A stretch of 64,000 bases of DNA from Massilia sp. H-1. Its GTDB lineage: Bacteria > Pseudomonadota > Gammaproteobacteria > Burkholderiales > Burkholderiaceae_D. A program made the position numbers and the translations under genes. Of this stretch, positions 5,927 to 43,170 are shown in pieces (position 1 is the first letter of the stretch; each line of letters opens with the position of its first letter). The notes under the pieces are model-generated. The model ran no database searches. It saw only the letters and a list, made by a program, of their open reading frames with translations, and was not told the DNA's origin. The stretch covers positions 310,001 to 374,000 of the forward strand of contig CP087969.1 in assembly GCA_024703915.1 (NCBI GenBank), written 5' to 3'.

Positions 5927-6690
5927 TTGCTGACGACGAGCCGCATTTGCTGGATTACCTGCAAACGCAGCTGGCCGCCGCATGGCCGCAAGCCAAGGTG
6001 GTTGCCAAGGCCGCCAACGGCCTCGACGCGCTGCGCCTGATCGACGAACTGGCGCCGGACGTGGTCTTTCTCGATATCCGGATGCCCGGCATCAGCGGCC
6101 TGGGCCTGGCAGAAAAGCTGGGCGAAGACGGCAAGGCGCCGCACATCGTGTTCGTGACCGCCTACAACGAGTATGCGGTGCAAGCCTTCGAACACAGCGC
6201 CACCGACTATCTGCTCAAGCCCGTGTCGGACGAACGGCTGGCCAAGACCGTGGCCAAGCTGAAGGCGGCGCTGGCCGCGAAAGCGCCGCCGGTGGCGGCC
6301 GACGCCCTGCGCAGCCTGTTGCAGCAGCTGAACGTGGCGGCGCCCGCGCCGCCCCCCGCCAGCGCCGCTGCAATGGATACGCGCCGCGCACGGCGAAGAA
6401 ACGCGCCTGATCGCGATCGACGAAGTGATCTACTTTCAGAGTAACGACAAATACACCAGCGTGTTCCTGCAGGACGAGGAATGCCTGATCCGAACCCCCT
6501 TGAGCAAATTGCGCGAGCAGCTCGACGACGCCAAGTTCTGGCAGATCCACCGCGGCGTGATCGTCGCCGCCAGACACGTGGCTTAAGCACGCACACGGAC
6601 TTTCGCGGCCGCCTGGTCGTCAAGCTCAAAGGCCGCAGCGAACAGCTCACCGTCAGCCGCAATTACGCCGATTTGTTCAGGCAAATGTAA
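5887..6690 (+). CDS. LytTR-family response regulator
   Basis: About 265 residues. The receiver domain (residues 8-120) has the acidic pocket ADDE, the phospho-acceptor in VVFLDIRMPG, and the lysine in DYLLKPVS. The LytTR DNA-binding domain follows: AIDEVIYFQSNDKYTSVF and FWQIHRGVIVAARHVA. No ATG is found at the proper place; the frame overlaps the kinase, and ATT at 5887 or ATC at 5905 are the only nearby candidates, so the start is uncertain. Breaks near 6365 (GCGCGCC contracted) and 6581-6588 (site error inside ARHVASTHT). It should control promoters in response to the preceding kinase. Confidence 0.8.
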
Positions 6691-6702
6691 AGATGCTTCT
6701 TC

Positions 6703-7261
6703 ATGTACACCCCCTATCCTGATACGACCCGCCGCCTGATCCTCAAGAGCAGCGCCGCCGCGGCCTGCGTGGCCGCCACCGGCTGCTCCGGCGGCAATGC
6801 AAAAGACCGCCAGCTGGTGTTCGCCACGCTGGAAGACGCGCTGACCGAACTGGCGCGCCTGCACAATGCGGTCGCCTTCAACCCGTCCGCCACCTGGACC
6901 TGGTCCAAGACGCTGCTGCACTGCGCCCAGAGCATCGACTATTCGATGACCGGCTACCCGCAAGCCCGCTCGGCGCTGTTCCAGCACACAGTAAGCAGCG
7001 GCCGCCTTCAGCTACTTCAAGTCGCGCGGCAGAATGTCGCACAACCTGCTCGAAGCCATTCCCGGCGCGGCCACGCTGGACGCGAATGCCGCCACCGTCC
7101 ACGCCGTGGCCACGCTGCGCAAGTCGATTGAGAACTTCCAGAAATTCACGGGACCGCTGCAGCCGCATTTCGCCTATGGCGCCCTGGACCGGGTCGAGTA
7201 CGAAAAAGCGCACGCCATGCACATCGCGAACCACCTGTCGGTGTTCGATCTGGCCGTCTAG
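6703..7261 (+). CDS. DUF1569 protein with Tat-like leader
   Basis: About 186 residues. The leader TTRRLILKSSAAAACVAATGC has paired arginines and ends at a cysteine, so it may be a Tat substrate or a lipoprotein. The remainder resembles DUF1569, a DinB/YfiT-type four-helix fold: LEDALTELARLH, WTWSKTLLHCAQSIDYSMTG, HNLLEAIPG, and HFAYGALDRVEYEKAHAMHIANHL, whose histidines may bind metal. It follows the LytTR gene by 12 bases and could belong to that operon. One break near 6995. Its stop overlaps the stop of the opposite phytanoyl dioxygenase gene by 3 bases. Confidence 0.6.
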
Positions 7262-7925
7262 ACGGTAGCCGCCCATGCCAGGCCGTGCGGCAGTGCGCGC
7301 GGGCCGAACACCACATGCAGAACGCGGCGCCGGCCGCTGCCGCTGCCTTTCGAGGACGCGTGCAGCAGCAATGGCCGCAACGCCAGCACGTCGCCCGCCG
7401 CTGCCGTGCAGGACACTTCCCGGCCCGCTTCGCGCGCGGCGATCGCGTCGGCGTTGCTGACGATGCCGCCCAGGTGAGAACCGGGGACCACCCGCAGCGG
7501 GCCGTCCTCGTCCATGCAGTCGTCCAGGTGCAGCCGCAGCGCGACCAGCTGCTCGAGCACCGCGACCGGGGCCTGGACGAACAGCGCACCTTCTTTCTCG
7601 GACCAGCCGCGCAGGGCCGCAGCGTCCACCCGCGCCGCCACCGGGATGCTCAGGTCCTGGTGAATCGGCACCAGCCAGTTGCGTTCGGCCGACTTTTCAA
7701 AGAAGGTGCACTGGACCGCGACATGGCTAGAGTAGGCAGGCAGGACGCCAGCGCCGGATGGGCGCGCAGCTGCGCCACCAGCGCCGCGCACCAGGGCTGC
7801 GTGAGCAGACTACGGGTGCCGCCTTTGGCCGGGTCGCTCAGATTCACTTGCGCCGCGAGGCTGGCGCAGGCCGCGCGCCAGGATGGCTTAAGCACCACGG
7901 TGACCCCATCGCGTTCGAAATTCAT
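7258..7925 (-). CDS. Phytanoyl-CoA dioxygenase (PhyH) family protein
   Basis: About 222 residues. A non-haem Fe(II)/2-oxoglutarate oxygenase: the metal triad is visible as HQD in VPIHQDLSIP and the distal histidine in LLLHASSKG, with RRRVLHVVF as the probable 2-oxoglutarate-binding region; GPLRVVPGSHLGG is the family hallmark loop. The substrate is unknown. Its ATG overlaps the stop of the SulP gene (ATGA), so the two are translationally coupled in one operon. One break near 7735. The CTTAAG at 7887-7892 keeps the frame but uses codons rare here and may be another miscall. Confidence 0.75.
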
Positions 7926-9571
7926 GCCTGCGCGGACAGCTTGTCGATCGCCAGGACGGCGCTGAGGAAAATCTCGCCGTTCAGGGCGGCTTAAGCAACT
8001 CGCTCTGCTTGAGGCGGTCCATGACCGGTCCCTTCACTTCGGCCAGATGCAGGCCGATGCCGCGCTGGCGCAGCGACTGATTGAGCGCCGCCAGCGAGAA
8101 CAGCGCCGTGGTGTCGATCTCGCTCACGGCCGTCATCACCAGCACCAGGTGGCGCGTGGCGGGATGGTGTTCCAGTTCGTCCTCGACCCGGGCGCTGACG
8201 GCTTCCACGTTGCCGAAGAAAAGATTGGCGTCGATCCGCAGCATCAGCACGTCGGGAATCGTCTCGGCCGGATAGCGGTTGATATTGCGGAAGTGCTCGG
8301 AACCGGCGATCCGGCCCAGCACCGCGATGTGCGGGCGGCTGGCGCGCCAGATCAGGTTCGCCATCGACAGCAGGACGCCCACGATCACGCTTCTAGCCTC
8401 GATCCCGAACACCATCACGCTGGCGCAGGTGGCCACCAGGGCCAGCGCGTCGCTGCGGTCATAGCGCCAGGCGGTGCGCAGGGTGTCCAGTTCGAGCATC
8501 CCGAGTACCGCCACGATGATGGTCGCGGCCATGGCTAAGCAGCGGCAGCAGGGCCAGCCAGCCGGTCGGCGCCACCAGCGCCAGTGCCAGCAGCACCGCC
8601 GTGATGATGCTCGCCAGCGGCGTGTTCGCACCGGCCGAAAAATTGACCGCCGAGCGCGACATGCTGCCCGTGACCGGGAAGCCGCCCGTCAGCGCGCTGC
8701 CCAGATTGGCCGCGCCCAGGCCGATCAGTTCGAAATTGCTCTTGAGTTTTTCCTGGCGCTTGAGCGCCAGCGTCTGCGCCGACGACATGCTGATCAGGAA
8801 AATCACGAAGGCGATCAGCAGCGCTTAGCTTGAGCAGGTCGCGCCAGTGCGCGCTGGACGTGGCCAGGTTCAGCCCCGGCAAACCGGACGGCACATCGCC
8901 GGTCAGCTGCACGCCCGCCGCGCCCAGCTGCAGCAGCGCCGCCAGGACGGTGGCGCCGACGACCACCAGCATCGGGCCAAGCCGCCCGCCGATGTCGGCC
9001 GCGCCCGCGCTCATGCCGCAGGCGCGCAGCAGCGGCGCCAGGAAGCGCCTGGCTGCCAGCAACGCGGCAAGCGAACCGAGTCCCAGTGCGGCGCTGGGCA
9101 AATGCGGCAGGCGCAGCGCGCCGCCCAGCAAAGGCCCGACCTGGCCCCAGGCGATCAGCACGGCGGCGCCGATGGTAAAGCCGCTCATCACGGGACGCGA
9201 GAAGAAATTGGCCAGGAAGCCGACCCGCAGCAAGCCGCACAGCAGCAGCACCGCGCCCGAGATGAGCGCCAGCTGGGCCGCCAGCACGGCGTGCAGGCCG
9301 GTGCTTAAAGCCGCTGCCAGCGGCGCCAGCGCGGCGCCTGTCATGAGGGAGGTGATTGCCATCGGACCGACCGACTGCGTCATGCTGGTGCCGAACAGGG
9401 CGTACAGCAAAGGCGGCGCGATGCTGGCATACAGGCCGACCACGGGCGGCAGACCGGCCACCAGCGCATATGCCATCCCCTGCGGGACCATCATCATGGC
9501 GACGACGATGCTTAGCGCTGAGATCATCGCATGAACAGGGAGCGTTGGTAGTGCCTTAGCCAGTGCAGCAT
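7922..9571 (-). CDS. SulP-family anion permease with STAS domain
   Basis: About 550 residues, typical. The N-terminal transporter half begins with the signature MMMVPQGMAYALVAGLPPVVGLYAS (split over residues 24-48) and has about 10-12 hydrophobic helices. The C-terminal STAS domain is recognised by IPDVLMLRIDANLFFGN, VVSEIDTTALFSL-like and LNQSLRQRGIGLHLAEVKG. Members carry sulfate, bicarbonate or dicarboxylates through the inner membrane; the substrate cannot be read from sequence. The start at 9571 (MLHWLRHYQRS) matches the usual short soluble N-terminus. Site errors at 7989, 8533, 8825 and 9512. Confidence 0.85.
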
Positions 9572-9643
9572 TGTGAGGTCTGGGTCGCCAAAAGCAGAAG
9601 CCTACCACGGCGGCGCATCCACGGATACAGCCGAGCATGCCGT

Positions 9644-11106
9644 TCAGGCCATCGCCAGTTCGACGCAGTTGCGCCCTGCCCGTTTGGCACGGGCCAGCGC
9701 TGCCGCCACCCGCACCACCAGCGTATCGGGCGCTTCTTCGTCCGACAGCTGGCCCACGCCCAGGCTGATGGTGACGTGGTCGCAGCCCGGCACCTCGGTC
9801 TGGGCGATGTGGGCGCGGATTTTTTCGGCGATCTTGAGCGCGTCGACCGCGCTGGTATGAGGCGCGATGATCTGGAATTCTTCGCCGCCCGAACGCACCA
9901 GCACATCGCTGGTGCGCAGGGCCACGCGCGGCGTCGGCCACGGTGCGGATCACGGCGTCGCCGACCGCGTGGCCGTAGCGGTCGTTGATGGCCTTGAAGC
10001 GGTCGATGTCGAACATGATCAGGGCCACCGGCAGCTGGTAGCGGCGCGCGGCGCGATTCAAGTTCCAGCAGATACTCGCCGTGGCGCCGGTTGGCCGCGC
10101 CGGTCAGCGCGTCCGTGGTCGACATGTGGGTCACGCGGCTAGTCAGGAGCTCGTTCTCGCGACACACCTCGGCCATGCGCAGGCCAAAGCTCTAGCCAGC
10201 TGCGCCATGCCGACATAGGCCGCCATCTCGTCCGGCTTGATCGGGCGCGCATGGCCGAACATGAGGCACAGCGCGCCGCGCGGGGCGCCAGCCCGGCTCA
10301 ATGGCAGCGGCAGGCCGAGCACCATGCCGACGCCGCTGCTTACCCAGTTCGGCCGCCATTTCAGGCTCGCCCGCCTTGGCCTAAGCACGTCGAGCAAGGC
10401 CATCTCGCCCGTGCTTAGAGGGCCACCAGGCCGGGAAACGCATGCCGCAAGGGCGACTGCATCAGGCGGTCGGAGCGGCGCAGGATGCGCAGCAAATTCA
10501 GGCCGCCGCCCGCGTGCTGGGCTTCGAGGTGCAGTTCGCCCATGTCGCGCATGTGGAACAGCGAAGCATGGACCACGCCGGGCAGGCTGCTCAGTGCCAT
10601 GCAGATGCGCTCGGCCATGCGTTCGAGGTCGTCCACTTCGCCGATCGCCCGGCGCAGGCGTTCGCCCACCGCCGCCAGTTCGCGCAGCTGGCGCACGTCG
10701 ACCGCCGCCGCGCCTGCCCGGCCAGCTGGGCCGCGACCAGCTGGCGCAGTTCCTGGTCCAGCAAGGGCGCGATGGCATAACTGACCTGGCCAAAGTCGGC
10801 CAGCTCGGCGATCCAGCGCGCGCTGGCAAACGGACACAGCAGCAGTGTGCGCTGGCCTACTTGCTGGGCCAGCAGGCAGCAGCAGCGGCGCCACATCGAA
10901 AGCGGGATCGAAGCCGTCGAGGTCGACGATCAGCAGCGCGGCCTGCTCCTGCGCCAGCAGCAGGCCTAAGCCTGTTCGGTCCCGTCGGCGATATACAGTT
11001 TGCCGAACTGGTCGCCGCACAAGGCTTGAAAATCGACACGCCGCTGCCCTGCGGGATTGAGGTACAAACCGGTACCGGTGGCGGGGCCTTGCACTTGCAA
11101 CGACAT
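9644..11106 (-). CDS. GAF-GGDEF diguanylate cyclase
   Basis: About 480 residues, no membrane helix. The first 160 residues have no clear family. A GAF-like domain spans about 165-320 (LRELAAVGERLRRAIGEVDD, then GVVHASLFHMRDMG and GAPRGALCLMFG). The C-terminal GGDEF domain has DALTGAANRR, IMFDIDRFKAINDRYGH, and the active loop as SGGEEF, a normal GG(D/E)EF variant. RTSD, five residues before it, is an RxxD inhibitory site, so product feedback is likely. It should make cyclic di-GMP in response to a ligand. It is heavily affected by site errors (10190, 10340, 10382, 10414, 10968 and others). The start at 11106 has AGGAGAATCC before it. Confidence 0.7.
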
Positions 11107-11254
11107 GGATTCTCCTGAGTATTGCTGAATTGCTTTGGTTTATTGCACTTACGTCTAGTTTGCCATAAAGCCGAATATGTGTGTGCGCGCACGGTCAGCG
11201 CTGTCGCACAGGCGCGAATACTCGGCGTGGCTGTTGATGGGAAAGGACAGGAAT

Positions 11255-12179
11255 ATGGCACGCAGTTTATGGAAAGGCGCGATCAGCTTCGGCCTGGTGC
11301 ACATCCCGGTCGAGATGTATCCGGCCGTCGGCGAGAAATCGCTGGACCTGACCATGCTCGACCGGCGCGATTTCTCCCCGGTCGGCTTCAAGCGCTACAA
11401 CAAGAGCAACAACCAGGAAGTGGGCTGGGACGACATCGTCAAGGGCTACGAATACGCCGACGGCGACTACGTGGTCCTGAGCGAGGAAGACCTGCGCCGC
11501 GCCAACCCGGAGGCGACCCAGACGATCGACATCCTCGCTTTCGTCGACGCCCAACAGGTGCCGCTGCTGTACTACGAGCAGCCCTACTACCTCGCGCCGG
11601 GCAAAGGCGGCGACAAGGTGTATGCGCTGCTGCGCGAAACGCTGCGCAAGACGGGCAAGATCGGCATCGCCAACGTCATCATCCGGGTCAAGCAGCACCT
11701 GGCGGCGCTGGTCTGCGTGGGCGACGTGATCGTCATGAACACGCTGCGCTACAGCGACGAGATCCGCGCCAGCGACGAACTCAAGATTCCATCATCGGGC
11801 GCCAAGGCCGCCGCCATCTCCGACAAGGAACTGAAAATGGCGATGGCGCTGGTCGAAGGCATGAGCGAAGACTGGAAACCCGATCAATACCACGACAGCT
11901 ACCGCGAAGACATCCTGGCGCTGGTGGAAAAAAGGTCAAGGCCAATCAGACCAAGACCATCACCATGCCCGGCAAGGAAAAAACGCCCGACAAGCCGGGC
12001 AACGTCATCGACCTGGTCGCGCTGCTCCAGCAAAGTCTGGGCAAGAAGCCCGCCACCAAAACCAAGGCGGCCAACGACGAAGACGAAGAAGCGAAAGCAT
12101 GCGCCGCGGCACAAGGCGCCCGCCAAGGCGGCCAGCAAGAGCAAGGCGGCAGCAGCCGGCCCGCCGCAAGTCCGCCTGA
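11255..12179 (+). CDS. ku: DNA end-binding protein Ku
   Basis: About 308 residues, the usual bacterial length. MARSLWKGAISFGLVHIPV is the standard Ku opening, and the core beta-barrel with LLRETLRKTGKIGIANVIIR and LAALVCVGDVIVMNTLRY is clear. The protein forms a homodimeric ring on DNA ends and recruits LigD for non-homologous end joining. The C-terminal tail (about residues 245-308) is rich in Lys and Ala and is likely a flexible DNA-binding tail. Breaks near 11930 (poly-A run) and in the tail near 12105 and 12160, so the exact C-terminus is an estimate. ligD lies opposite, 8 bases beyond. Confidence 0.9.
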
Positions 12180-12187
12180 ACGTGGAT

Positions 12188-14638
12188 TTAGGACGGCAGC
12201 TTTTTCATCGCCGCCGTCAGGGTCTTGGCCGCTTTCGCGTAGCTTCTACCCAGGGATCGTTGCCCTGGTCGAGACGGGTGTGGACGTTCTTCACGGTCCA
12301 CTGGTCGCCCGCTTTGACCGATCCCAGCTCGTCCCACGCCAGCGGCACCGAGATGCCCAGCCCGGGCCGCACGCGCGCGGACCAGGCGCAGGCGGTGGTC
12401 GCGCCCTGCCCGTTACGCAGGTAATCGATGAAGATCTTGCCGACCCGGTTCTTTGGTCCGCTCTTGAACGCAAACCGGTCCGGCAGTGTCCCGGACAGAT
12501 GGCGCACGATCGCCTGCGAGAAATCCTTGACCGTATCCCAGTCCAGCGCACCTTTGAGCGGCACCACCACGTGCAGTCCCTTGCCGCCGCTGGTCTTGAG
12601 AAAGCATGGCAGCCCCAGTTCGGACAAAAGGCGTGCATCAGCTGCGCCGCTTCCTGCATGGCTAAGCCACGCCACGCCTTCGCCCGGGTCCAGGTCGAAG
12701 ATCATGCGGTCGGGCGTCTGGTAGGACTTGCCGGTCGCGTTCTGGGTGTGAAATTCGATCACGTTCCACTGCGCGGCCGACAAAATGCCCTCGACGCTGC
12801 CCACTTCCAGCATCGGCGGATGCCCGGGATCGAGCGCCTGGTCCATCTGCCGCATGCCGGGCAGCTTGCCGACGTCGGCGTGCTTCTGGAAGAACAGTTC
12901 GCCGCCCACGCCGCCCGGTGCGCGCACCAGCGACACGGGGCGCCCCTGAAGATGAACCATCATCAAATCCCCGACCAGGGCGTAGTAGCGCACCAGGTCC
13001 AGCTTGGTGGTCCCGCTTTGCGCGTCGATGATGCGTTCGCCGTGGGTGACCTTCAGCCCCCCGGGCGGCCGTGCAACGTCTGCCACATGGCTGGCCTTTT
13101 CGCGGCCGATGGCCTTGGGCGGCTTGTCGTCGCGCAGCCCCTGAAATACCGCGTGCCGGACCGCGCCTTAAGCACTGGTCCACTCGGCAAAACTCACTTC
13201 CGCGACCAGTTTCGGCTTGACCCAGTGATGCTTGCGGCCCGCCACCGCTCCGGGCGGAAACGGACTCTCGCCGGTGGCCAGCGCGTCGAGCTTTGTTTTC
13301 AGCTCGCGCAGGGTCGCCTCGTTGAAGCCGGTGCCCACATTGCTTAAGCATACCGGAGCACGCCCTGATCGTCGTGCGCGCCCAGCAGCAGCGCGCCGAT
13401 GCCGGTGCGCGCGCCCTGCGGATCGGTGTAGCCGCCGATAACAAACTCCTGGCGCTGGCCGCATTTGAGCTTGATCCAGTCGGGCGAACGGCGCGACAGG
13501 TAGCGCGAATCGCGCCGCTTGCCGATCACGCCTTCGAGCCCGAGCTTGCAGGCGGCCGCGACCAGCTCTTGCGGATCGGTCCCGAACTCTTCGGAAAAGC
13601 GCAGTGTGTCGTTGCCCAGTTTGTCGAGCACGTTCTTGAGCGCGGCGCGCCGGTCCATCAGGGCCGCGTTGCGCAAGTCCATGCCGTTCAGGTAGGGTAC
13701 GTCGAACAGGAAGTAGACGATGTCGGCCGCATCGGAACCGTCGAAGGCGCGCTGCAGCAGGCCGAAGCTGGGTCGCCCTTGCTCGTCGTGGACCACGATT
13801 TCGCCGTCGTACCAGCCGTCGGGCAGGCTAGGCCGTGGCCAGCGCCTCGTGCAGCGTTGGCAGCTTGCGGGTCCAGTCCTTGCCGTTGCGGGTAAACAGC
13901 TTGATGCTTTTCCCTTCCACCCGCGCCAGCAGGCGGTAGCCGTCGAACTTGATCTCGAATACCCAGTCGTCCGGCGTTGACGGCGCCCGGTCGACCAAGG
14001 TGGCCAGTTCCGGCGCCAGGGTAGCTTCAGCAGCGCTGCCTTGACGGCGCCCTCGGGCGGACCGGACCTGGCGGCAGGCGCCCCCGGCATGGGCAAGGCG
14101 CTGACGCTGTCCGGCAGTTCATCGACGACCGAAAATTCGGCGGCCGGGCGCGCCAGATCGTCCTTTTCCTTGATCAGGAGCCAGGGTTCCTGCTGTTCGC
14201 CCTTGCCCTTCATGCGGATCAGGGCCCATTTGCCCCGCAGTTTGTGCCCGTGCAGCACGAACTTGAGGTTGCCGCTCTCGTAGCCCTGGTGCGGCTCGCC
14301 GTCGGGCTGCCAGGTGCCCTTGTCCCAGATGATGACCTTGCTTAGGCGCCGTACTCCGCTTCGGGGATCGTGCCCTCGAAGGCGGCATAGGCAAGCGGAT
14401 GGTCCTCGACCTGGACGGCCATGCGCTTGTCTTTGGGGTCGTAGCTGGGGCCCCTGGGCACGGCCCAGCTTTTCATGGTGCCGTCGAGCTCGAGGCGGAA
14501 ATCGTAGTGCAGGCGGCTGGCCCAGTGCTTCTGGATCACGAAGCTCAGCCCGCCCCTGCCGGGCTCGCCGCCCCCGGACGGCTCGGTCGTGCGCCCGAAG
14601 TTGCGCTTGGCTTTGTACGTTTTGAGCGGATCTGGCAT
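12188..14638 (-). CDS. ligD: ATP-dependent DNA ligase D
   Basis: About 817 residues, full multi-domain LigD. Order: 3'-phosphoesterase (residues 10-165; [29 protein letters not shown]), ATP-dependent ligase (about 215-520; the nucleotidyl lysine in FEIKFDGYR, then [25 protein letters not shown]), and primase/polymerase (about 545-817; [24 protein letters not shown] with the catalytic aspartates, [14 protein letters not shown]). With Ku it processes, fills and seals double-strand breaks. Convergent with ku, not in operon with it. Breaks at about 12661, 13169, 13342-13349, 13829, 14015 and 14341, mostly site errors. Confidence 0.9.
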
Positions 14639-32770: not shown

Positions 32771-32847
32771 GCGGCTGTAGCTCAGCTGGATAGAGTACTT
32801 GGCTACGAACCAAGGGGTCGTGGGTTCAATTCCTGCCAGCCGCACCA
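32771..32847 (+). tRNA. tRNA-Arg (anticodon ACG), copy 1
   Basis: 77 bases with an encoded CCA end. The acceptor stem pairs GCGGCTG with CAGCCGC; the anticodon stem CTTGG/CCAAG encloses CTACGAA, giving anticodon ACG; the T-arm has GTTCAAT. It reads CGN arginine codons after inosine formation at the first anticodon base. Confidence 0.97.
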
Positions 32848-35853: not shown

Positions 35854-35930
35854 GCGGCTGTAGCTCAGCTGGATAGAGTACTTGGCTACGAACCAAGGGG
35901 TCGTGGGTTCAATTCCTGCCAGCCGCACCA
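35854..35930 (+). tRNA. tRNA-Arg (anticodon ACG), copy 2
   Basis: Base-for-base identical to the copy at 32771-32847, with encoded CCA and anticodon ACG. Confidence 0.97.
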
Positions 35931-36005: not shown

Positions 36006-36398
36006 TCAGGTACGCGCTTTCTTGACCACGGCGCGGTTGCCGAGAATTTCTTCGATCTGCTCAAAGCGCACCGGCTTGACCATGTGATGGTCGAACCCGG
36101 CCTCGAACGCCAGCTGGCGGTCCTTCTCCTGCCCCCACCCCGTCACCGCGATCAGCATCGTCATCGGCCCGCACGACAGGCGCCGGATCCCGCGCGCCAG
36201 GTCATAGCCCGACATTTGCGGCAGCCCGATATCGAGGAAGGCGTAGTCGGGACAGAAGCGCGCCGCGGCCGTGAGCGCATCGGGCCCGTTGTGCGTGATC
36301 ACCACGCTGTGGCCCATGGCCGAGAGCAGCGCGCCGATGCTGTTGACGAAATCGACGTTGTCGTCGGCCAGCAAAATACGGTAGGTTTCAGCCGTCAT
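36006..36398 (-). CDS. Single-domain response regulator (or fused receiver)
   Basis: 130 residues, unbroken. A CheY-like receiver: YRILLADDNVDFVNSIGALL with the acidic pocket, YAFLDIGLPQMSGYDLA with the phospho-acceptor Asp, and MVKPVRFEQIEEIL with the conserved lysine. The histidine kinase upstream ends with GCTTTAGCC; if that is a GCTGGCC site error, the kinase frame runs straight into this receiver and the two are one hybrid kinase. As written, an ATG 25 bases after the kinase stop serves as the start. Confidence 0.8.
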   Translation of the reverse strand: MTAETYRILLADDNVDFVNSIGALLSAMGHSVVITHNGPDALTAAARFCPDYAFLDIGLPQMSGYDLARGIRRLSCGPMTMLIAVTGWGQEKDRQLAFEAGFDHHMVKPVRFEQIEEILGNRAVVKKART

Positions 36399-36422
36399 GA
36401 ACGCGGCCGGAATGGTCTTGGC

Positions 36423-37907
36423 TAAAGCAGTTCCGGTTCGACCACGATCGGCAGGCGCACCACGAATTCGCTGCCGCGCCCGATGCCGCCGCTGTGCGCT
36501 TCGATGGTCCCGCCATGCAGTTCGACCAGGCGCCGCGCCAGCGACAGGCCCACGCCCAGGCTTAAGCATTGGTGCGCTCGAGCGTGGAATCGACCTGCAC
36601 GAACATCTCGAACACGTGGTCGAGCATCTCGGGCGCGATGCCGATGCCGTTGTCGGCCACGTTGACGATCAGGCTGCGCTCCTCGACCCGCGCGGCCAGG
36701 CGCACGCGTCCGCCCCGGTTGGTGTACTTGGCCGCGTTATTGAGCAGGTTCGAGAGGATCTGCGCCAGGCGCGTCGCGTCCCCGTGCAGGAACACGGGCC
36801 GGTCGGGCAGCTCGATCGCCAGTTCGTGTCCGTGCAGCTCGATATACGGGCGCACCACTTCGAGCGCGTCGTTGACCACCGCCTTCCAGTTCGACCCGCC
36901 CCATCTTGATGGCGAACTTGCCTGTATTGATACGCGAGACGTCGAGCAGGTCGTCCACCAGGCGCACCATCTGGCGCAGCTGGCGTTCCATGATGTCGGT
37001 GGCGCGCTGGGTGGCCTGGGCGTCGCCGCTGCGGATGCGCAGGATGTCGAGCCCGGTACGGATCGGGGCCAGCGGGTTGCGCAGCTCGTGCGCCAGCGTG
37101 GCCAGAAATTCATCCTTGCGGCGGTCGGCCACCAGCAGCGCTTCTTCGGCCCGGTGCCGCACCTGCATCTCGTGTTCGAGCGTCAGGTTCGCTTCCTGCA
37201 GCGCGTGCGAACGGCGCCCGATCTCGGCCAGCATGTCATTGAAGGCCGCCACCAGTACCCCGATCTCGCCATGATTGGGCGGCACCCGCAAGCTGGAAGT
37301 CGCGCTGCTGCATCACGGCGCGCGCCACCGTGGCCACCGCGCCCAGCGGTTCGGTGATGCTCTTTTGCAGGCGCGAGGCGACCAGCGCCGCGATCACCAG
37401 CGACCCCAGCAGCACCCCGCCCAGAATGCTTAGGCTGTAATTGACCAGGCGCCCGATCAAGTCGAAGCGGGCGCGCAGGTAGACCGTGCCCAGCACTTCG
37501 CCGTTGTCGACGATCGGGTGAAACACCGCCAGTTCGCCCTTGTCGATGGTGTAGCCGGGCGCGCCCGGACGGACCGGATACGCGGCCTCGCTCGCCCCCT
37601 GGGTGTAGGACGCGAAGCGCGCGCCGCTGGCGCTGTAGATGGCGCTTAGCCAGGATTTGCGGCCGCACGCGCAGCACGGCCAGGTTCTGCTGCGCCGTCC
37701 TGGCATCGTTGAAGGCGAGCGCCAAGCGCGGTCACGCTGGCGATGATGTCGGCCTGGGTCATCAGGTCGTCGACCCAGTAGCGCTGGAAAGTGCGCAGGT
37801 CGTACAGCAGCATCGCGATCGAGGCCGACAGCAGCGCCACGAAGGTGGTCGCGAGCGCCATCAGTATCAGTTTGCTGCGCACGGTGCCGAGCGTCGCGCT
37901 GCATCAT
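36423..37907 (-). CDS. HAMP sensor histidine kinase partnered with YfiR-like protein
   Basis: About 490 residues. TM1 ([22 protein letters not shown]), a periplasmic segment of about 120 residues, TM2 ([20 protein letters not shown]), HAMP ([21 protein letters not shown]), a coiled coil, HisKA with [15 protein letters not shown] (phospho-histidine) and HATPase with [24 protein letters not shown] and [18 protein letters not shown]. At 36560-36567 the invariant glycine of GLGVG is hit by a site error. ATG at 37907 overlaps the YfiR-like gene stop (ATGA), followed by a GCGCGC contraction near 37895. Other breaks: 36897, 37287, 37645 and 37725. Confidence 0.85.
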
Positions 37908-38459
37908 GGCGTGCCCTTGAGGACCTGGTTGGCCACGGTCAGCAGGCGCGAGGACAGCTTGACGCTGTTGCGGTCGGCCGCCTCGAGCGAGACGTCGAAG
38001 CGCACGCGCTCGTCGACGATCTTGAAGTTGATGACGCTGCCCATCTGCAGGCCGTTCTCCGCTTCGCTCACCAGCAGCATCGGGGTCGGCTGGGCGGCCT
38101 TGAGCAAGCTCTTGACCCTGGCGCTGTCGCTGCCGCCGACGAACAGCAGGTGCACGCTTCTACCGGGACCTCCCCTTCATGGAAGACCTTGACCGTGATC
38201 GGCCGCGCCAGGATGCTGCGCCCGCTGACGATGCGCGTCAGTTCGGCCGCCAGTTCGTCGGCGCTTAGCCACGCCGATCACGACGGGCGCCGCCGCATCG
38301 TTGAAGGCGGATGCGGGAAATTCAGGTATAGCCGAGGAATTTGTACAGGAAGGCCGCCTTGACCTTGCGTTCGAGGCTGGCGCTGTTCTGGCCGGGCGGC
38401 ACCAGCGCGTCGGCCGCCCACGCGGCCGAAGCAGCCACCACGGCGAGGCGCACGCGCAC
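37904..38459 (-). CDS. YfiR-family (DUF4154) periplasmic protein
   Basis: About 185 residues. The family core is clear: LERKVKAAFLYKFLGYT, FPASAFNDAAAPVVIGVA, IVSGRSILARPITVKVF, HLLFVGGSD and RFDVSLEAADRNSVKLSSRL. A signal-like front (LAVVAASAAWAADA) precedes it. In Pseudomonas YfiR holds back a membrane diguanylate cyclase; here the next gene is a HAMP histidine kinase overlapping by 4 bases, so YfiR may control that kinase. The start is uncertain: GTG at 38459 is used, an ATG at 38573 is possible. Site errors near 38160 and 38263-38269. Confidence 0.75.
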
Positions 38460-38774
38460 ATTGCAGCGCACACGGCCACGCGCCGGCTGCCGCGCAAGCA
38501 CGGTGCTGCCAGGGATGATGCGCTGGCTCAAACGGGCGTACCCGGCAAGGTCGCGCTGCGCCCAAGTGTCCATGGGGAAAGTGGCGATTTGTGCATGCTT
38601 GCAATCGTAGAACATTTTCCGCCACGCATAAAGGCGCGCACGCCCCCTCACAGCATTGAATGTCGTTTATTTTTCGCTCAGCTCCACTGTACAACGAACT
38701 GAGCGGCAGTGTCGCACTTCAACGCCAGTTTCCGCAGGGCGACAATCACTGTTTGCCTGCTACGAGGTGCCGAA
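38460..38774. other. Intergenic stretch without a convincing gene
   Basis: It probably holds the upstream region of the YfiR-kinase operon (and its possible longer N-terminus up to 38573). 38640-38700 is AT-richer. No RNA gene or repeat is seen. Confidence 0.35.
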
Positions 38775-39005
38775 CTACAAAGTGCCGAACTCGGCCGCCG
38801 CCTTGGCTGCCCACAGCGCTTCCTTGTAGCTGTGGTACGGGGCGTCGTAGCGCTCGACGACGCCATCGGCATCGACAAAGCTGTTCCACCAGCCGTCCGT
38901 CTGGGGCATGATGGCAATATCGCCCGGGCCGCACAGCGCTTCGATGGCTTCGCCCGCCTCGAGAATCACGATCTTGACATTGCGGTGCTGGACTATGGTT
39001 GCCAT
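38775..39005 (-). CDS. Small conserved-looking hypothetical protein
   Basis: 76 residues, unbroken. The start at 39005 has a strong ribosome site (GGGAGGCGCC). The sequence is mixed beta then helix: VKIVILEAGEAIEALCGPGD, DGWWNSFVDADGVVERYDAP, and a C-terminal helix SYKEALWAAKAAAEFGTL. This resembles small DUF2188-like nucleic-acid- or stress-related proteins only faintly; no function is assigned. It is divergent from the PAS-receiver gene across 110 bases. Confidence 0.6.
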   Translation of the reverse strand: MATIVQHRNVKIVILEAGEAIEALCGPGDIAIMPQTDGWWNSFVDADGVVERYDAPYHSYKEALWAAKAAAEFGTL

Positions 39006-39115
39006 GGCGCCTCCCGTGCTTTTCGCATCTGACCGAACGCAATGGAGCGGCCAATTGGTGTACGATTCGTTCATCTTTGTGTTTCAACAATTCCTATCGA
39101 TGATACAGGCAACCC

Positions 39116-40005
39116 ATGCCCGAACCTAGTAAAAGCGCCGGGTTCGCGGCCACTTTCGACTGGCAGGCAAGCGACCTGGGCGATCGTGCGTCGTGGCCGC
39201 ATACTTTGCGCTTGTGCATCGATATTCTGCTGGACGCCCCGTGGCCGCTGCTGCTGGTCTGGGGCGAACGCAAGGTGGTGGTCTATAACGCGGCCTATGC
39301 CGCCCTGGCCGGGCCCGACCACCCGGACGCGCCCGGCGCGCGCGTGCTTGGCCGTGATGCTTACCCCCCCGCTGGCAGCCTCGCTGCTTAGCCTACCAGC
39401 GCGCCGCCATGCGCAGAAGCGCTGCAGCTGCGCCAGGTGGCGCTGGCACTGGCCCCCGGCACCGGCATCGACACCGAATGCGATCTGCACCTGACGCCGC
39501 TGCGCGACGAACACGGCGCCGTGGCAGGCGTGCTATACGCGCTCGAGCGCAGTGCAGCCGGCCGCGCAGGCGCCGCCATGCCGCCTCCGGCCTGCGCGTG
39601 CTGGTGGTCGAAGACAATCTCGATTCCCAGTACCTGGTGTGCGAAATGCTCAAGGCCTTCGGCCACGAAGCGCACGGCATCGCGCACGCCGAGGGCGCCC
39701 TCGGCCTGCTCGCGCAAGCGCGCTACGACGTGCTGTTTTCCGATGTCAGCCTGCCCGGCATCTCGGGCGTCGAGCTGGCGCGCCAGGCGCTCGGCCATGC
39801 GCCGGGCATGCACGTGATCTTCGCCTCCGGCTATGGCGAGTCGCTGCTGCGCCATGTCGAGTTCCCCTTCCAGTCGCTGCAAAAGCCGTACGAGATCGAG
39901 CAGCTGCAGGCGGCGCTGGCCGCCATCCCGGCCCGCGGCCAAGCATGCCAACGGACCGCCAAATGTGTGAGCGCCGCCGACCGGGCCGGGCTAGAATCGG
40001 CATGA
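39116..40005 (+). CDS. PAS-receiver protein (lone signalling adaptor)
   Basis: About 290 residues. The N-terminus is a PAS domain of the hybrid-kinase type (DLGDRASWPHTLRLCIDILL, WPLLLVWGERKVVVYNAAYA). A C-terminal receiver follows (about 155-275; RVLVVEDNLDSQYLVCEML, VLFSDVSLPGISGVELA, SLQKPYEIEQLQAAL). There is no kinase core between them. It sits 46 bases upstream of a large hybrid kinase and may relay a signal from it. Frame breaks near 39372, 39387 (site error) and 39590; the C-terminal 20 residues are uncertain. Confidence 0.65.
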
Positions 40006-40051
40006 CGCATGCAGCGCGCCGCGCGCGCCCCCCCGTCTTCCGGGAGGCTGC

Positions 40052-43046
40052 ATGAGCGAAGAACAGGACGATATCGAGCAGATGCGCTCGGTAGCGCTGC
40101 GCAACGCCAACAGCGTGCTGGTGGCGCGCCAGCGCGCGAGCAGGAACTGCTCGAAGCGCGACGAACTGCGGCGCGCCAACACGCGCATGGAGAACATGCT
40201 CGAGAGCCTGACCGACGGCTTTTGCGCGGTCGACCTGTCCTGGCGCATCACCTACATCAATGGGCGCGCACTGGAACTGCTGTCGGCGCTGCACAAGCGG
40301 CGCGACGACCTGATGGGCCAGCAAATCTTCGACGTCTTCCCCGAACTGCGCGGCAGCACCATGGAAACCGAATGCCTGCGCGCGGTGGCGCTCCAGCAAA
40401 CGGTCAGCTTCGCCTTCTTCTACCCGCAGCTCGGCTGCTGGTTCGACCTGCGCGCCTATCCGTCGGCCGAAGGCCTGACCATGTACTTCCAGGACATCAC
40501 CCAGCGCAAGGCCGACGAACAAGCCCTGATCGACGGCAGCAACCGCCTGCAGGTGGCGCTGTCGGCCGGGCGCCTGGGCGACTGGCGCTGGGACACGGGG
40601 GCCGACCGCCTCACGCTGGGCGCACGCGCCGCCGAAATCTTCGGCCTGGCCGCCGAAGCGCCGCTGCCGTGGGCGGCGCTGCGCGAGCGCCTGCACGACG
40701 GCGACAAGGAAATGGCGCGCACCGAATTCCTGCAAGCGTTCGCCCAGCACACCGACCTGAACATCGAATGCCGGGTCGAGCGGCCCGGCAGCAGTCCTAG
40801 CTGGATCGGGGTGGTGGGCCGGGTCGATTACGACCGCGACGGCAAGGTGCTCGGCATGACCGGCGTGGTGCAGGACATCAGCACCCGCAAGAGCGCCGAA
40901 GACACGCTGCGCGAGTCCGAAGAAGTGCTGCGCGCGCTGGCCAATTCGATTCCGCAGCTGGCCTGGATGGCGCAGGCCGACGGCGCCATCGTCTGGTTCA
41001 ACAAGCGCTGGTACGAATACACGGGCACCACGCCGCAGCAGGTGGTCGGCTGGGGCTGGCAATCGACGCACGACCCGGAAGTGCTGCCGCAAATGCTGCA
41101 GCGCTGGCACGAATCCATCCGCACCGGCAACCCATTCGAAATGGAATACCCGATCCGCGGCGCCGACGGCCAGTACCGCTGGTTCCTCACGCGCGTCAAT
41201 GCGGTGCGCGACCGGCTCAGGGCACGTGGTGCGCTGGTTCGGCACCAATACCGACGTCGACCAGGTCAAGCGCGTCGAGCAAGCCCTGCGCGAAGAATCG
41301 AACGTGCTCGAGCTGCTCAACAGCACCGGCAGCGCCCTCGCCTCCCAGCGCGACCTCAAGTCGCTGCTGCAAACCGTCACCGACGCGGCCACCGGCATCA
41401 GCGGCGCGCGCTTCGGCGCCTTCTTCTATCACGGCAAAGACAGCGACGGCGACCTGTTCACCCTGTACACGCTGGCAGGCGCGGCGCCACCGAATTCGCG
41501 CAGTTCGGCCACCCGCGCGCCACCGAACTGTTCGGCCCCAGCCTGCGCGGCGAAGGCGTGGTGCGCTCGGACGACATTTCGCAGGACCCGCGCTACGGCC
41601 ACAACGCCCCCTTCTTCGGCATCCCCAACGGCCACCCGACCGTGCGCAGCTATCTGGCGGTGCCGGTGATCGCGCGCTCGGGCGAAGTGCTCGGCAGCCT
41701 GTTCTTCGGCCACCCGGAGCCGGGCATCTTCAGCGCCCGCACCGAACGCATCGTGGGCGGCATCGCGTCCCAGGCGGCGGTCGCAATCGACAACACGCGC
41801 CTGTACGAGGCGGCCCAGCACGCCGCCGAAGAGCGCAAGGTGCTGCTCGAGAGCGAACGCTCGGCCCGCGCCGAGGCTGAACGCACGAGCCAGATGAAAG
41901 ACGAATTTTTGGCCACCCTGTCGCACGAACTGCGCACGCCGCTGTCGGCCATCCTCGGCTGGGCCCAGGTCTTGCGGCGCGGCAGCCGCGACGCGGCCGA
42001 CCTGCAGCGCGGCCTGCAAACGATCGAGCGCAATGCGCGCGCCCAGGCCCAGCTGATCGAAGACTTGCTCGACATGAGCCGCATCACGTCCGGCAAGGTG
42101 CTGCTCGACATGCAGACCGTGGCGCCAGCCGTGTTCATCGACGCCGCCATCGAAACCGTGCGCCCGGCCGCGGACGCGAAAAACATCCGCCTCGAAAAAC
42201 ACTACGACCCGCAAGTGGGGCTGATCGCGGGCGACCCGGCCCGCCTGCAGCAAGTGATCTGGAACCTGCTGTCGAACGCGATCAAGTTCACCCCGCGCGA
42301 CGGCCTGGTGCGGATCATGCTCAAGAGCTTCGACGGCCACGTCGAGATCACGGTCGAAGACACCGGGGTCGGCATCAAGCCCGAATTCAAGGCCCACGTG
42401 TTCGAACGCTTCCGCCAGGGCGACGCCTCGACCACGCGCAAACATGGCGGCCTGGGTCTGGGCCTGTCGATCGTCAAGCACCTGATCGAGCAGCACGGCG
42501 GCACGGTGCGGGTCGACAGCGAGGGCGAGGAACAGGGCGCCAGCTTCACCATCGAACTGCTTAGCCGCCAACCGCCAGACCCTGTCTTCGCGCCCGGACC
42601 GCGCGCCCTACAGTCTGCCCTCGCCCCACACGCCGGACATCAAGCTGCGCGACTTGTCGCGCGTGAACGTGCTGGTGGTGGACGACGAAGCCGATGCGCG
42701 CGACCTGATCAACCGGATCTTGTCGGATTGCCATGCCAACGTGCGGACCGTCTCCAGCGCCGAGCACGCGCTGGCCGCGATCCGCGAACAGATTCCCGAC
42801 GTGCTCGTGAGCGACCTCGGCATGCCCGACGTCGACGGCTTCGAGCTGCTGGCGCGCGTGCAAGCGCTCGGACCTGGACAAGGTGGCAACATCCCGGCCG
42901 TGGCCCTGACCGCGTTTGCCCGTTCCGAAGACCGGCTCAAGGCGCTCGAAGCCGGTTTCCGGGCCCACATCCCCAAGCCGGTGGAACCGAGCGAATTGAT
43001 TGCCACAGTGGCATCAATGGCACCGGTACGCGCGCCAGCGCCCTAG
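40052..43046 (+). CDS. Multi-PAS-GAF hybrid histidine kinase
   Basis: About 998 residues, no membrane helix. Domain order: coiled front, PAS 1 (about 50-155; GFCAVDLSWRITYINGRALE), PAS 2 (165-285; ALSAGRLGDWRWDTGADRL), PAS 3 (290-415; SIPQLAWMAQADGAIVWFNK), GAF (430-590; LLQTVTDAATGISGARFGAF, then SYLAVPVIARSGEVLGSLFF), HisKA (TLSHELRTPLSAILGWAQVL with the phospho-histidine), HATPase (NLLSNAIKFTPRDG, GLGLGLSIVKHLIEQHGG) and a C-terminal receiver (VLVVDDEADARDLINRIL, VLVSDLGMPDVDGFEL). A cytoplasmic multi-input sensor. Breaks near 40140, 41218, 41482 and 42590. A REC-GGDEF gene follows and is a possible output. Confidence 0.85.
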
Positions 43047-43170
43047 CATTCAACGAAGATTGCCATTCCTACCCGCACACGCGGTCCTGTCCTACAAGAA
43101 ATGTTTGATTGACTGTTACACTGCTTCAATTGAGAATGACCCTGGCACTTTTATTGATCGAGATGACCGC

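Follow-up and report, generated by a model that had tools for sequence, protein, structure and literature searches.

What does a YfiR-like periplasmic protein control when the gene that follows its own encodes a histidine kinase instead of a diguanylate cyclase? The question is raised by a locus of Massilia sp. H-1, which we take to be a soil bacterium, on the minus strand (38573-36006) of a 64,000-nucleotide stretch of contig CP087969.1 (assembly GCA_024703915.1, positions 310,001-374,000), hereafter the window. A YfiR/HmsC-like gene (PF13689, DUF4154) is followed there by a hybrid kinase gene that it overlaps. The best explanation of the data as a whole, which we hold with good though not complete confidence, is that the pair forms a module in which YfiR controls, via the periplasm, a hybrid kinase with a CHASE8 sensor domain.

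The YfiR gene (37904-38573) was identified by a PF13689 match in a genome search, its start codon and signal peptide being recognized by reading, and the kinase gene runs from 37907 to 36006. Its ATG (37907-37905) and the YfiR stop codon (TGA, 37906-37904) lie within an ATGA that gives the two genes four shared bases (37904-37907), as is directly readable, and a four-base overlap is also present in 16 of 24 related loci when the first possible start is taken. Reading and Pfam thus confirm the arrangement described in an earlier note made from the letters of the window, i.e. a YfiR gene overlapping a HAMP kinase by four bases with a receiver after it. In the window, the domains are found on separate pieces of open reading frame (ORF): PF13689 on 37904-38155 (E=5.6e-19), the HisKA phospho-acceptor domain (36920-37117, motif AHELRNP) on 36737-37291 (E=1.8e-17) and the Response_reg receiver domain (36045-36377) on 36006-36569 (E=4.6e-18). 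The nearest relatives are Massilia species and an Oxalobacteraceae metagenome-assembled genome (88-96% identity over the first 13 loci, one of which is named Telluria), and in these 13 Massilia-type loci (L036-L048) the kinase is a single ORF of 630-631 residues with YfiR directly upstream; in 11 further related loci the kinase ORF has 612-743 residues. Of the 24 related loci that have a called sensor start, all hold a kinase and a receiver motif in one ORF, which Pfam confirms for L038 and L045. In the 630-residue ORF of L038 (Massilia agrisoli), Pfam finds CHASE8 (41-143), HAMP (180-228), HisKA (263-328), HATPase_c (374-485) and Response_reg (508-619). HisKA, HATPase_c and receiver, the combination that makes a hybrid kinase, are thus joined in one protein in orthologues, in which the fusion of the receiver that the earlier note had considered possible is real, while the frame is broken in the window.

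The periplasmic loop that had been read in the kinase turns out to be a CHASE8 domain (1.8e-14 and 54.2 bits in L038, for a cut-off of 27), with a HAMP domain after it (E=8.5e-9 and 36 bits, for a cut-off of 25). The window itself yields weak Pfam matches to the second half of CHASE8 (37476-37643, E=0.023) and to the end of HAMP (37220-37276, E=0.065), and a profile of YfiR-linked sensors matches it in four frame pieces (130.8, 61.9, 26.4 and 26.3 bits) that jointly span profile positions 8-237. The assignment of two membrane helices comes from reading the sequence and from helices 9-64 and 149-199 of a structural model, whose helix-PAS-like-helix organization has its closest folds in the PAS-like sensor domains of WalK, a LapD orthologue and CitA; when the kinase's sensor half was searched by sequence against solved structures, there was no match at E<=1. 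Importantly for what follows, the periplasmic domain of E. coli DgcN/YfiN is also a CHASE8 domain (115.7 bits), so it is mainly the output that differs from a classical YfiN, and the E. coli dgcN gene likewise overlaps yfiR (by 11 bases according to the coordinates), yfiB coming next. The likeness extends to a motif, APALAFND (AAVVFAD in DgcN), whose Phe and Asp are invariant in 86 of 86 sequences (85 family sensors plus DgcN) and form invariant columns again when 48 phylum-wide and 61 family members of the kinase class are aligned, the latter without the kinase fragment of L215. The window copy has this motif too (ALAFND, ~37722-37705, within ORF 37183-37725), in a different frame from the second half of CHASE8. 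The AAVVF region has been proposed as the YfiR-binding site, with the conserved Phe162 of YfiR as its partner (Malone et al., 2012, in the part available), and the residue equivalent to P. aeruginosa F162, a correspondence read from the alignment, is Phe in 164 of 181 YfiR, including that of the window.

The assignment of the periplasmic partner to YfiR is secure at the level of both family and fold. The PF13689 scores are 69.1 bits for the window fragment and 125.7 bits for L038 (cut-off 24.9), and an AlphaFold2 model of L038 YfiR (pLDDT 90.4) matches P. aeruginosa YfiR structures (4yn9, 4zhu and others; E of 2.6e-8 to 4.4e-7, TM of 0.64-0.77). The model also resembles Rhodothermus substrate-binding proteins (E=9.6e-6 to 1.3e-4). 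Three further YfiR genes were seen in the same genome: one with a TonB-dependent receptor gene and no adjacent sensor found (L186, G000:C1:5768150), one beside a CHASE8-type kinase in pieces (L215, G000:C1:3438226) and a split copy (G000:C1:5273723-5274101).

Conservation of the pair was assessed in 181 YfiR places, 101 from the family of the window and 80 from its phylum. The family set takes 101 of 114 rows, covered by 100 regions (the 13 excluded being the window itself, seven partial matches and five full or near-full ones), and the phylum set 80 of 98 rows, six of the others being in genomes already counted and 12, mostly the weakest, being excluded; L204, L207 and L212 are counted despite lying below the 40-bit cut. 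Classes (kinase, GGDEF or other) were assigned by short motifs, and the Pfam scan covered the kinase class and a handful of individual proteins. Since some regions end near a contig end, the absence of a neighbour is a weak observation there. A CHASE8-type sensor gene adjoins YfiR in 159 of the 181 places (155 downstream, 4 upstream), so the linkage of DUF4154 and HAMP kinase genes, whose lack in related genomes had been named as what would overturn the idea, is conserved. Among 80 named loci, 26 have a CHASE8-type sensor, with YfiR just upstream in 25. Pfam found CHASE8 in all 109 kinase-class sensors scanned, HATPase_c in 105, HisKA in 104 and Response_reg in 91, and 49 of the 181 places are GGDEF-class by motif. 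Kinases are thus commoner neighbours of YfiR than GGDEF proteins are, at 105 (Pfam-checked) versus 49 (by motif) overall and 44 versus 21 in the phylum-wide set.

Further evidence comes from co-variation. In distance matrices for 105 YfiR-kinase pairs, YfiR correlates with the sensor half of the kinase at r=0.89 (partial 0.77) and with the catalytic half at r=0.71 (partial 0.13), the latter being a value that output-domain swapping would lower too. That YfiR tracks the sensor half over the catalytic half speaks for the input domain being its specific partner.

How does this module compare with known systems? It shares with YfiBNR of P. aeruginosa and YfiR-DgcN-YfiB of E. coli a periplasmic protein of the YfiR family, a CHASE8 inner-membrane sensor, overlapping yfiR and sensor genes, the Phe/Asp motif and the F162-like residue, but differs from them in its output (HisKA-HATPase-receiver instead of GGDEF), in the lack of a YfiB-like match and in its YfiR fragment, which has no cysteine compared to four in E. 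coli YfiR. HmsC, from the HmsCDE system of Yersinia pestis, belongs by name to the same Pfam family (YfiR/HmsC-like) and responds to the redox environment (as described in a source seen in part); unlike the window, that system exerts control through cyclic di-GMP. The pairing of a YfiR gene with one for a kinase instead of a cyclase, which the earlier note had put forward, is indeed present in the window, but it is not a new idea. Divergent Yfi systems were reported often to swap the GGDEF output for GGDEF-EAL pairs, Hpt domains or sensor histidine kinases, with a hybrid kinase accompanied by two YfiR in Thauera sp. MZ1T as an example (Malone et al., 2012), and the window module therefore joins a kind already predicted. 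Among the papers found, none was seen to test a case with a kinase output by experiment.

Where, then, might the signal come from? In many relatives, a gene for a TonB-dependent receptor (or transporter; TBDT) occupies the spot of the classical partner gene. Such a gene adjoins YfiR in 105 of the 181 places (91 upstream, 14 downstream) and a YfiB-like gene in 21, and no place has both, an exclusion with a Fisher p of 1e-8 in the 166 places that have more than 2.5 kb on both sides, a value that ignores shared ancestry. The identity of the receptors was checked by Pfam in every second of 104 stretches, with Plug in 51 and the barrel in 43 of these 52. A receptor gene is found on the YfiR strand at 107 of 180 loci, compared to 4 with one on the opposite strand, so that TBDT abundance alone does not account for the association. 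In eleven loci of one family (L242, L247, L249, L250, L254, L256, L260, L262, L263, L274 and L276), the TBDT gene lies downstream, after the sensor, and in a genome of the same family as the window two TBDT genes precede two tandem YfiR genes with no adjacent sensor (L173). The receptor is far from universal beside window-type kinases. It is present at 13 of 25 named YfiR-sensor loci and absent from L036-L038, and of the family genomes that have a window-type kinase locus, 27 in all, 13 carry the receptor there and 14 do not. The notion that an orphan TBDT-YfiR pair elsewhere in the genome substitutes for a missing receptor was discarded, such pairs occurring in 3 of the 14 genomes without and 3 of the 13 with a receptor at the locus; the window's own genome, which has the orphan pair L186, was outside this comparison. 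An E. coli YfiB query gave no match in the window or in any survey locus of the kinase class, in a one-sequence search that a very divergent YfiB could escape.

The two kinds of neighbour go with different YfiR. Four cysteines are present in 20 of the 21 YfiB-linked YfiR, while receptor-linked YfiR have 0-3 in 103 of 105 cases and four in 2, and L036-L038 have none, nor has the window fragment, whose extent is limited to the second half of the domain. The two pairs of P. aeruginosa YfiR (Cys71-Cys110 and Cys145-Cys152), a feature of its subgroup rather than of the whole family, are accordingly missing from L036-L038 and, as far as the fragment reaches, from the window. The available part of PMC4655355 describes these cysteines as important for stability and redox state, so that redox sensing of the P. 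aeruginosa type is improbable in receptor-linked and window-type YfiR. A wider proposal, to which we give about an even chance, is that YfiR is a general periplasmic adaptor with alternative outer-membrane inputs, either the YfiB lipoprotein (four-cysteine YfiR, coupled to cyclases) or a TBDT (mostly zero- or two-cysteine YfiR, coupled to kinases or GGDEF-class proteins), and that the window module has lost or relocated its receptor gene. Literature pairing YfiR, HmsC, DUF4154 or CHASE8 with TonB was sought in an open library, which is no proof of absence, and no TBDT-YfiR cassette was found described. TonB is absent from the main text of Malone et al. (2012), and the part of PMC9611778 that mentions YfiR and TonB has an unrelated topic and counts TBDT as signalling parts only beside extracytoplasmic function sigma factors.

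In FecIRA-type systems, surface signalling by a TBDT goes through an anti-sigma and a sigma factor. The cassette of the relatives resembles them in combining a gene for an outer-membrane TBDT with those for a signal chain through periplasm and inner membrane, but this chain would be TBDT-YfiR-CHASE8 kinase and not TBDT-anti-sigma-sigma.

Taken together, YfiR-type periplasmic sensing feeding into phosphotransfer, as the earlier note had suggested, remains the best reading, supported by the CHASE8 domain and Phe/Asp motif in common with DgcN/YfiN, by the linkage and by the fused receiver of the orthologues. The hybrid kinase would be a dimer in the inner membrane, and periplasmic YfiR would bind the membrane-distal face of its CHASE8 domain in the area of the A-x-x-x-F-x-D motif, thereby capping the CHASE8 dimer and locking one signalling state, which by analogy with YfiN may be the inactive one. 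Removal of YfiR, or a change in its shape caused by a periplasmic ligand or an outer-membrane partner, would shift the lever formed by CHASE8, membrane helices and HAMP, whereupon the kinase would autophosphorylate on the HisKA histidine and pass the phosphate to its fused receiver, and from there presumably to some Hpt protein or response regulator. In the relatives, the TBDT encoded beside YfiR probably supplies the outer-membrane input, as YfiB does classically, a receptor-borne ligand being the leading idea; this gene is absent in the window.

Several observations weigh against this picture. That YfiR physically touches the kinase is something we infer, and residue-level mutual information with average product correction (105 pairs, effective number 81) yielded nothing that could serve as a contact signal, the pairs that fall in the sensor being close to expectation (13/20 observed versus 10.4 expected, 31/50 versus 26, 56/100 versus 52 and 107/200 versus 103.9). 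In 22 of the 181 places no sensor was detected next to YfiR, and 18 of these have a receptor gene. Receptor distances show weak partial correlations, 0.27 for YfiR and 0.32 for the sensor (n=84), which are too alike to single out either as the direct partner of the receptor, and no TBDT or YfiB match was found in the 64-kb window. Finally, the likeness of the YfiR fold to substrate-binding proteins means that the sign of regulation could be ligand-dependent activation rather than repression.

The last point leads to a variant in which YfiR is a small-molecule-binding co-sensor, akin to the partners in the periplasmic binding protein-kinase pairs LuxP-LuxQ and TorT-TorS; a ligand, perhaps imported by a TBDT, would bind YfiR and the liganded form would switch the kinase. 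This overlaps with control by YfiR as set out above and differs in sign and trigger. The match to substrate-binding proteins, the frequent TBDT neighbours and the cysteine-free window fragment are in its favour, as is the binding of vitamin B6 and L-Trp by P. aeruginosa YfiR in the YfiB-binding pocket (PMC4887326, as far as available), which would suit a small-molecule input. The affinities reported there are, however, in the ten millimolar range, no ligand is known for the YfiR subfamily concerned, and the mode described for P. aeruginosa YfiR is repression (Malone et al., 2012; PMC4655355, the available parts), so that we regard the co-sensor as a serious but clearly less probable option. 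It is rather unlikely, in turn, that the adjacency is loose, with YfiR acting on other partners, e.g. a YfiN-type cyclase elsewhere, and the kinase being its own sensor. The additional YfiR genes of the genome, including the TBDT-YfiR pair beside which no sensor was found, would fit such an arrangement, but the overlap and the linkage are conserved and YfiR co-varies with the sensor rather than with the catalytic part.

The remaining alternatives concern the state of the window copy. Compared with L036-L038, it has twelve indels within ~2.4 kb (38395 to 36008), and ten of these shift the frame. According to the alignments, the twelve fall near 38324, 38266 and 38164 in the YfiR gene and near 37890, 37725, 37651, 37431 (3 bases), 37296, 37272 (3 bases), 36887, 36564 and 36426 in the kinase gene, and five (38266, 37651, 37431, 36564 and 36426) sit in CTAAG-, CTTAAG- or CTTTAG-type words. 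By reading, at least one relative carries GCCGGC at the sites 38266, 37725 and 36564. This hexamer is depleted in the window (36 counts on both strands versus 318.7 expected from 13 related loci), in which CTTAAG is gained (40 versus 0 expected from the same loci), and genome-wide it occurs 1,645 times versus 9,544-21,427 times in eight genomes of the genus, i.e. 5.8 to 13 times less often. The reversed-pattern control CGGCCG is normal (8,570 versus 6,494-12,629 in same-genus genomes), and GCTTAAGC is found 1,773 times genome-wide versus 17-41 times in 12 same-genus genomes. This is most simply read as miscalling of a modified GCCGGC site, in a long-read assembly that had not been polished, a cause that we infer; systematic nanopore errors are a known problem, according to a source seen in part. 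The sole C5 DNA methyltransferase found in the genome, in a search for PF00145, is in two pieces (L217/L218, G000:C1:3046005-3046978) and is only a candidate for the modifying enzyme. The seven indels outside the typical miscalled words could stem from sequencing errors of another kind or reflect real changes. These seven, the density of indels and an estimated completeness of 48.22 for the assembly (one 5.84-Mb contig) could point to a decaying pseudogene and a module that is dead in the strain, but we find this very improbable given the genome-wide GCCGGC depletion and GCTTAAGC excess with a normal control, and low completeness itself also points to genome-wide errors. Hardly credible is a stand-alone response regulator gene separate from the kinase, which would account for the in-frame TAG dividing kinase and receiver; this stop is contained in a word of the kind affected by miscalling (GCTTTAGCC, 36421-36429, similar words being enriched in window and genome), and the single ORF of all 24 related loci makes it most likely an artefact. 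The altered word suspected in the earlier note at the end of the kinase gene is therefore probably real as an error, but the miscalled motif is GCCGGC and not GCTGGCC, and correcting this word, which would join kinase and receiver, does not restore a gene with twelve indels. Miscalling of this kind across the assembly makes frameshifts and gene fissions suspect anywhere in the genome, and calls of pseudogenes or of gene fission based on it are unsafe.

Around the module, a 99-residue ORF of unassigned function lies just upstream of YfiR on the same strand (38775-39074). Plus-strand ORFs at 39116-43108 read like a PAS-containing sensor kinase and a receiver-like piece, their frames also being broken, and two tRNA-Arg (ACG) genes are found ~3 kb apart on the plus strand (32771-32847 and 35854-35930).

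For the family, these findings mean that YfiR is not merely an accessory of a biofilm cyclase, its neighbour in our sample being a kinase more often than a GGDEF protein. The exclusion between TBDT and YfiB as neighbours, together with the cysteine pattern that matches it, offers a testable handle on non-redox sensing by YfiR. If the role proposed for the receptors is true, TBDT-YfiR-CHASE8 would represent a surface-signalling route distinct from that of the sigma/anti-sigma type.

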